Below are positions 15,563 through 41,334 of a DNA stretch of 64,000 nucleotides, piece after piece. This DNA is from Bacteroidia bacterium. GTDB taxonomy: Bacteria > Bacteroidota > Bacteroidia > JADZBD01. The DNA is taken from contig JAGVMA010000007.1 of the NCBI GenBank assembly GCA_020054095.1, forward strand, positions 1 to 64,000, given 5' to 3'. Each line of letters begins with the position of its first letter. Within the stretch, counting starts at the first letter, position 1. The notes below the pieces were generated by a model. The model was given only the letters and a program-made list of their open reading frames with translations, ran no database searches and was not told the origin of the DNA. Both the position numbers and the translations under genes were made by a program.

Positions 15563-17008
15563 TTATTTTATTATAAACTTCCCAGTTGCCAAAATTTTAC
15601 TTTCTGAAATTATTTTTAAAAAATAAATTCCGGGTAAAAGATTTCCTTTATCCAAAATCATTTCTTTTGTTCCGTTAGGGATAGTGCGTTCTATTTTTTT
15701 TCTCCCATAAACATCAATTACTTCAAATAGCCCTTGTTTAATTTCGAATTCAGAGCTTATTTCAATAGTTGCCGAAGAAGAAAAAGGGTTGGGGAATATG
15801 ATAACTTGCCCTTGAGGCAGATGGGTTGGCTCGAATACTCCAGTAGGAGCATAACCCACGCTATCAGTTTTCACTAAATAAATCCAGTTTGTGTTAAAAG
15901 CACTTGACCTCCCAACAAGAATAAATCCCATATCAGTAGTTTGTCGTAGAAAATAACCTGATTCTCCACCGCTTGGGCTTCCATAAGTTTTTTCCCAGAT
16001 TGTATCACCAATATTGTCCGTACGTATTAAAAATATTCCGTCACCATTCGCGCTGCCACCATTTCCTAAGAGGATATATCCTCCTTGGATTTGCTGAACA
16101 CAATAAGCTCCTTCTGAATAAGTGTTTGGCGGACCATTGGAATACGTTTTTGTCCAAAGCGTATCTCCATTGCCATCAGTTTTTATTAAATATGCACCGT
16201 AAAAAATGGTATCGAGAAAACTACTAGTATAACCCGCAATTATGTACCCCCCATCTGTAGTTTGTTCAACACTCTGCCCTCTATCGTTTCGAAAACCACC
16301 GTACGTTTTCGACCATAGTGAATCCCCATTCAAATCTGTTTTTATCAGCCATACGTCCCAATCGTTACCTATTGCTTTCATTCCTGTTGTAATGTATCCG
16401 CCATCTGTAGTTTGATCAATAGAATATGCAACATCCGCGCCAACCGTACCATAAGTTTTTTGCCAAAGAATATTTCCCGCGGAATCAGTCTTTACAATAT
16501 ACACATCATAACTCCCAGCTCCTCACGCAGAGGTGTAGCCACATATTACATAGCCGCCATCAGTTGTTTGCCTGACAGAATAAGGGATATTAGCCCCTGG
16601 TGCGCCAATTGTTTTTGTCCAAAGAGTATCTCCATTTTTATCGGTTTTTAAAAGCCATATTTTACTGTCAGTTGTTGTCATATAATCCTTCTCGCCAACA
16701 ATGATAAAGCCACTGTCAGGTGTCTGTTCTATATACTCCCCACCATCAGCATTGTTGCCCCCGTATGATTTAAACCAAAGTATTTTACCAATAGAATCTG
16801 TTTTTATTAATGCAACATTATTATCAAGAGTTGAAATGGAATTTACACCCGAAATAATATAGCCATTATCATAAGTTTGCTGCACGCACGCCCCACCAAA
16901 ACATCCAAGTGTATCATAATACTTTTCAAATGTAATGGATTGAGAAAGTGCAATAGAATAAACGCAGGATGCGAACAAAAACAGGAAGATATGTGAACCA
17001 CTTTTCAA
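15563..17008 (-). pseudogene. T9SS type A surface repeat protein interrupted by an in-frame TGA
   Basis: One continuous frame of 482 codons is broken only by TGA at 16523-16525 (codon 162). The first part has a signal peptide (CVYSIALSQ) and repeats of the type DGGYIICGYTS...D..LLKTD.NGDTLWTKT; the part after the stop continues the same repeat (GAGSYDVYIVKTD) with at least four more units and ends in a T9SS type A sorting domain (IFPNPFSSSATIEI, LLPGIYFLKI). Without readthrough the product is 161 residues and lacks the sorting domain, so it could not be anchored; the second half has an internal ATG at 16502-16504 but no signal peptide. Either a recent nonsense mutation, an assembly error, or recoding; repeats elsewhere have Phe or Gly-like residues at this site. 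Confidence 0.8.
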
Positions 17009-28226: not shown

Positions 28227-28262
28227 ATAATATTTTTTTATGTTTTCTAAATATTACTCTGA

Positions 28263-28367
28263 CTTATCTTTTTCTTTCTCAAGAAAACGATTTTCCACCT
28301 TCTTTTAATTATTTAAAAGGGTTGGTAAGGTTTCATCGGGCGTTATCCCTCCACCTTTCGTGATAAG
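28263..28367 (-). ncRNA. SAM-I (S-box) riboswitch aptamer controlling metH
   Basis: Read on the minus strand, P1 is formed by CTTATC (28367-28362) and GATAAG (28268-28263). Between them lie the S-box core sequences GGTGGAGGGA, then GCCCGATGAAACC, a variable AT-rich P3, AAGGTGG, and a P4-like GAAAACG region. In the family, SAM binding stabilises P1. Here the 3' side of P1 overlaps the antiterminator arm AGTCAGAG (28264-28257) by two bases, so SAM binding would free the terminator and switch off metH. Placement 78 bases before the metH start fits. Recognition is by eye from the conserved core; a covariance-model scan was not possible. Confidence 0.88.
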
Positions 28368-28384
28368 TATAAAAGAACGTGGAA

Positions 28385-40041: not shown

Positions 40042-41334
40042 ATGAAACATATTTACAAAGCCATAAGTTTATTTTTACTTTTTCCATTTGGTTTATTGCA
40101 AGCGCAAAACTGGACAACAATTGCCCTAACGTGCGGCACAATCTTTAATATGAAAAAAGATCCTCAAAACAATTTCATGTATGTTATGGGCGAGCTTTGC
40201 GGGATGAATCAAAATGGGCTTATAAACGGAATAGCTAAGTACGATGGCGTAAACTTTATTGCTATGGATAATGGAATTACTGACTACGATGTTATTGTTA
40301 GTGTAACAGATTTAGAGTTTTATAACAATACAATATATATATGTGGTGAGTTTGATTCTGCCGGATATTCTCCGGTAAATAGTATTAGCCGCTATGTAAA
40401 TAACCAGTGGACTACAGTAGCCGGAGGCGCAAATGATTTTGTAAGCGATATGTGTGTTTATAATGGCGATTTATATGCAGCGGGCAGGTTTACTCAAATT
40501 GGAACAGTTACTACTACAGGCCTTGCCAAATGAAACGGTACTTCTTGGTCGGTAGTTACAAATTGGACCGGGCAAAAAGCATATAAACTCGAAACATACA
40601 ACAACTCACTTTTTGTATGCACTTATGGCGATTCGATACTCGAGTATAACGGCTCAAATTTGTTGTATCACGAAACATTGTACAAAAATGCCGGCTTTCC
40701 TTTCGCAACACGTATGAAGTCTATAAATAACAAACTATACATTACCGGTTATTTTGATGGCACTTTAAATACAGTATCGGAAAACATAATTTATTACGAT
40801 GGCACATGGAATAGTATGAATATTACTAATTACGGTAATGCTTGGTTTTCACCATGTGTTTATGATATTAGAGGAAACGCAAATGACCTGTTTATGGTTG
40901 GCATGTTCGATTCTATTAATAATCTATTCGCATCTGGTTTTGCATATTACAGTAATTCAAACTGGGCAACATTCTCTTCAACTATAAATAATGCAGAAGC
41001 CGTTTCCATAGAATTTTACAAAGGCGATATTTACGTTTCAGGAAGAATCGAGTTTCGCAGATACGACAGCACCCTGTTCGTTCAATCAATCACAAACAAA
41101 AATATGTTGATTGATATTTATCCTAATCCAAGCAATGGTAACTTCACAATAAAAAAACAAACCGATGGGCAAGCACAAATTACGGTGCACGATTTAGTCG
41201 GGAATTTAATTTTTAGCTCAACCATTAATAATAAAACATCGGTTATAGATTTAACTTCTCTTGCTCGGAGTTTGTATTCCATCACTATCACCGAAGGTGA
41301 AAATACACATACGCAAAAAATAGTAGTGAATTAA
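40042..41334 (+). pseudogene. T9SS type A surface protein interrupted by an in-frame TGA
   Basis: One frame of 431 codons is broken only by TGA at 40531-40533 (codon 164). Before it is a signal peptide (LFPFGLLQAQ) and a beta-propeller-like repeat region (GIAKYDGVNF, AAGRFTQIG); after it, in frame, NGTSWSVVTN and further repeats (YYDGTWNSM) ending in a T9SS type A sorting domain (IYPNPSNGNFTIKKQ, LARSLYSITI). The interrupted phrase reads GLAK-stop-NGTSW. The same motif earlier in the protein is GIAKYDGVNF and family members read Trp here, so TGG to TGA is the simplest change. The unbroken protein would be secreted and surface-attached. Start chosen at the ATG before the signal peptide. Confidence 0.85.

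Follow-up and report, generated by a model that had tools for sequence, protein, structure and literature searches.

According to the survey of Belinky et al. (2021; PMC7918605), most in-frame stops of bacterial genes last only at the time scale of population polymorphism, and bacterial genes with in-frame stops and a dN/dS below 1 are also on record (PMC7918605). UGA is the leakiest stop codon in E. coli and is read there mainly as tryptophan (PMC11126739). Decoding of UGA as Trp is moreover known from classical reassignment and from a modified tRNA-Trp(CCA) with a 4-bp anticodon stem (PMC13092985), and the Hirsh suppressor of E. coli consists of a G24A change in tRNA-Trp (PMC13092985). The gene described here lies in a window of 64,000 nucleotides (the whole stretch of DNA that was analysed) and resembles the propeller-like Por_Secre_tail surface proteins of the Bacteroidota, with a predicted signal peptide, W/Y/F-[ND]GxxW repeats and a C-terminal sorting domain. 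However, it carries a TGA codon within its repeat domain, unlike its paralogous matches in the same genome. Like the young nonsense pseudogenes and polymorphisms of the survey (PMC7918605), it has a single in-frame stop, a frame that is otherwise open and coding-like, and no accumulated decay; unlike them, it has no orthologue among the genomes searched from which dN/dS or persistence could be derived. The best explanation, to which we give a probability of about 0.73, is a recent nonsense mutation that cost one gene of a large, redundant family its secretion tail.

The frame comprises 431 codons, of which codon 164 is the TGA (context GLAK*NGTSWS), and its sole further stop is the terminal TAA (41332-41334). 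Both halves are one gene. Indeed, (i) the sorting domain downstream of the TGA was detected above the curated Pfam cut-off and in frame with the rest of the gene, (ii) the in-frame codon-usage score is 0.167 upstream and 0.122 downstream of the TGA, against about 0.006 or below in the other frames (among the sampled genes that served as reference, the median is 0.156, the 25th percentile 0.12 and the 5th percentile 0.056), and (iii) a continuation of 266 codons that ends in a significant C-terminal domain identifies the downstream half, beyond chance, as the rest of the same gene. These results bear out the in-frame TGA with an intact frame on both sides that had been reported in a preliminary description of this DNA. 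The layout given there was correct as to a signal-peptide-like N-terminus before the stop and a T9SS domain after it, but the repeats, which it had placed after the stop, lie on both sides. Propeller-type repeats on either side (those upstream matching DUF5122/Kelch in Pfam only weakly, below the cut-off) place the stop inside the repeat domain. The coordinates of all these features are collected in the table.

Table. Features of the two interrupted T9SS-type genes of the window
Feature	Position	Strand	Remarks
Interrupted gene, T9SS-type repeat (propeller-like) surface protein	40042..41334	+	163 aa + TGA + 266 aa
Predicted signal peptide MKHIYKAISLFLLFPFGLLQAQ	40042..40107	+	read by eye from the translation
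In-frame TGA where the repeat motif [ILV]A[KR]-W-[ND]GxxW has its conserved Trp	40531..40533	+	
T9SS C-terminal sorting domain, Por_Secre_tail (PF18962)	41116..41328	+	E=1e-13; severed from the product by the TGA
Second interrupted T9SS repeat protein gene	15563..17008	-	161 aa before the in-frame TGA, 319 codons after it
In-frame TGA of the second gene	16523..16525	-	related repeats mostly carry F or Y at that position

The residue formerly encoded at codon 164 can be read from the other copies of the repeat motif. The pattern [ILV][ASCG][KRSEVTQN], followed by any residue and then by [ND]GxxW, was counted in the open frames of loci from the same genome and from relatives, which gave 85 copies besides the interrupted one (GLAK-*-NGTSW). 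At the position of the TGA these copies have W (76), Y (5) or F (4) and never a stop, so that the aromatic residue predicted in the preliminary description is indeed the family residue, and Trp, a well-supported assignment, is much more likely than any other residue to have stood there originally. A search of the genome with the protein gave 58 matches, of which a single one, the interrupted gene itself, contains a stop. The premature stop thus sits in a conserved domain of which intact homologues exist, as in a nonsense pseudogene or nonsense allele, and no homologue ending at this site was found. An AlphaFold model built from the single sequence is all-beta and of low confidence overall (mean pLDDT 47); near codon 164 the pLDDT is about 66-80, and in this model the codon forms the end of one strand in a two-strand pair.

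The age of the stop was considered from the state of the downstream half. With an assumed transition weight of 3, about 3.7% of random substitutions yield a stop in this half, and with the same weights TGA represents 24% of the nonsense changes in the gene. If stops alone are counted, the probability that a neutral downstream frame remains open falls from 0.75 at 1% divergence to 0.56 at 2% and to 0.23 at 5%; with frameshifts added (at an assumed 0.1 indel per substitution), it is 0.34 at 1% divergence. Since a neutral frame of such length often stays open at low divergence, the open frame indicates recency and not function. The absence of decay noted earlier is therefore correct as an observation, the downstream half being intact and homologous to unbroken paralogues, but given these probabilities it is weak evidence. 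Among the genomes searched, no orthologue was found: of two scans of genome contigs, one gave no match and the other only a 28% match, which was to the sorting domain; one other genome of the family gave no DNA match; and in the relatives inspected, the site downstream of the neighbouring PspC-type gene carries other genes.

We infer that the mutation exists in the organism itself, arose recently and led to loss of function. The gene would have encoded a propeller-like surface protein exported by the T9SS, of which this Bacteroidota bacterium has many, and a recent single-base change probably turned the codon for the conserved Trp in one of its repeats into TGA. Translation would now be ended at codon 164 by RF2, and the predicted product would be a Sec-exported fragment of 163 aa, devoid of the later repeats and of the C-terminal domain needed for T9SS export. 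This fragment should be non-functional at the surface, where the full protein would no longer arrive, and the loss could be covered by the paralogues. That the downstream half is still intact would reflect the youth of the mutation, present either as an allele that segregates or as a young pseudogene that has become fixed. Ordinary near-cognate reading by the tRNA-Trp could make a little full-length protein; some Trp insertion at UGA is to be expected generally (PMC11126739), but the results give no sign of selection for it.

The preliminary description had hinted at more than a nonsense mutation, and a TGA in frame where Trp belongs is indeed what a reassigned code would give. However, the code of this organism is standard. 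In a sample of 1.29 Mb of the 3.17 Mb genome (41%), TGA is the terminal stop of 150 of the 992 ORFs with 100 codons or more, versus only two frames that cross a TGA. (Within this sample, a long run of N lies inside contig G000:C8:80001-100000, locus L058, after the ORF ending at L058:8039; the whole sample contains 32000 N.) The RF2 gene prfB is present (487 bits, cut-off 370), and no UCA anticodon was found among the tRNA genes checked in this genome. A reassignment of UGA to Trp was thus rejected, TGA being in wide use as a stop. Selenocysteine at codon 164 was likewise rejected, as neither SelB nor tRNA-Sec gave a match above cut-off in the genome; the matches below cut-off resemble other translation GTPases in the case of SelB, and correspond to tRNA-Ser and other ordinary tRNAs in the case of tRNA-Sec. 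A-to-I editing of the mRNA would require a change of UGA to UGI, and the known TadA context, UACG, does not fit codon 164. Taken together, a dedicated recoding of UGA in this organism, as selenocysteine or as Trp, is extremely improbable. The TGA itself was correctly observed, but with an ordinary stop codon, RF2, no suppressor tRNA or selenocysteine factor found, and similar single stops, including TAA, in this protein class in relatives, the suggestion of something beyond a nonsense mutation was not supported; the phenomenon looks ordinary, with no new use of the genetic code.

The sole tRNA-Trp found has the anticodon CCA and a class-typical structure. A TGA at a Trp position together with tRNA-Trp(CCA) as the only tRNA-Trp recalls the systems in which UGA is decoded as Trp, by classical reassignment or by the tRNA with the shortened stem (PMC13092985). 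However, no tRNA-Trp(CCA) with a 4-bp anticodon stem was found; unlike that tRNA, the one encoded here has an anticodon stem of five pairs with G27:U43 at its top, and unlike in reassigned codes, TGA is widely a stop. Its D stem contains U11:A24, which we equate, from the comparison of tRNA-Trp genes, with the pair that the Hirsh G24A change creates in E. coli. Both pairs looked suggestive of a suppressor, but among 30 tRNA-Trp genes compared (the one encoded here and those of 29 loci from relatives) G27:U43 is present in 25 and U11:A24 in 20; since both are common in the class, they mark no lineage-specific suppressor, and this candidate was rejected. A 121-base tRNA-like match (G000:C61:42815-42935, i.e. 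L126:2815-2935) with 38.9 bits in the tRNA family search was not recognised as a tRNA by ARAGORN or cmscan.

A second gene of the window is interrupted in the same manner and has an intact continuation after its TGA. It starts with TTG and lacks an ATG, whereas in the closest homologue of full length (L169, 40% identity) Met occupies that position; the gene appears to be another one of this kind that has become degraded. Each sampled ORF was extended past its stop, and continuations were retained if they were coding-like from the first codon and showed no following gene that starts early on; by eye, two clear within-gene stops were picked out of the listed candidates among the 992 ORFs, at 40531-40533 and 16525-16523. 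Both are TGA, and they lie 24 kb apart, a coincidence that has only modest probability under a model of chance nonsense mutations. Among the listed matches of relatives to the second protein, one frame of G023 contains a TAA and one frame of G032 a TGA. The former (L170, G023:C35:46245-47666) is a homologue from another family with a single in-frame TAA, and the latter (L188, G032:C277:1946-3223), also from another family, has its single in-frame TGA at the Trp of GDTLW.

An assembly, consensus or strain-mixture error, with a population that mostly carries a sense codon at 40531-40533, would also account for the TGA, and the window does belong to a draft genome of 87 contigs in which within-gene stops are very rare (2 in 992 ORFs). 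However, the reported completeness of this genome is 100% and its contamination 0.32%, and relatives carry the same kind of interruption. Moreover, T9SS-tail genes number 63 among the 647 genes of a 0.89 Mb sample and hold 17.5% of its codons, so that random errors would be expected mostly elsewhere; the chance that both stops fall in such genes under random placement is about 0.03, for a sample of two only. The location of both stops in T9SS-tail genes favours, as far as two cases allow, real mutations tolerated in expendable genes over random sequence errors, and we regard an error as unlikely. Somewhat less likely still is a tolerated or useful readthrough, in which tRNA-Trp(CCA) would read the UGA to give a little full-length exported protein besides much truncated product. 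The known leakiness of UGA would insert precisely the family residue at codon 164, the constrained interrupted genes of the survey offer precedents, the U11:A24 pair of the tRNA could be invoked, and a second TGA-interrupted T9SS protein gene lies in the same window. Against this, the TGA of the second gene occupies an F/Y position, no RNA structure beyond that of shuffled sequences was found downstream of the TGA of the first gene (100 nt fold, z=0.13), U11:A24 is a common pair of the class, and an orthologue with the TGA was not encountered in the genomes searched. The more elaborate proposal that some T9SS surface-protein genes of the lineage retain a UGA that is usefully read by tRNA-Trp(CCA), without a special tRNA, the product being for the most part a short fragment in the periplasm with a small full-length share that is exported, appears very doubtful; the sole hint of such expression tuning is the pair of TGA-interrupted T9SS genes 24 kb apart.

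A recent nonsense mutation, as preferred here, carries a caution: a stop at a Trp position followed by an intact frame does not alone indicate recoding. Indeed, TGG can become a stop by one transition, Trp is recurrent in these repeats, and large redundant families of surface proteins can shed a member harmlessly. If readthrough were true, leaky termination would tune the display of a surface protein. Elsewhere in the window, a SAM riboswitch (RF00162, 73 bits) was detected on the minus strand at 28261-28369.
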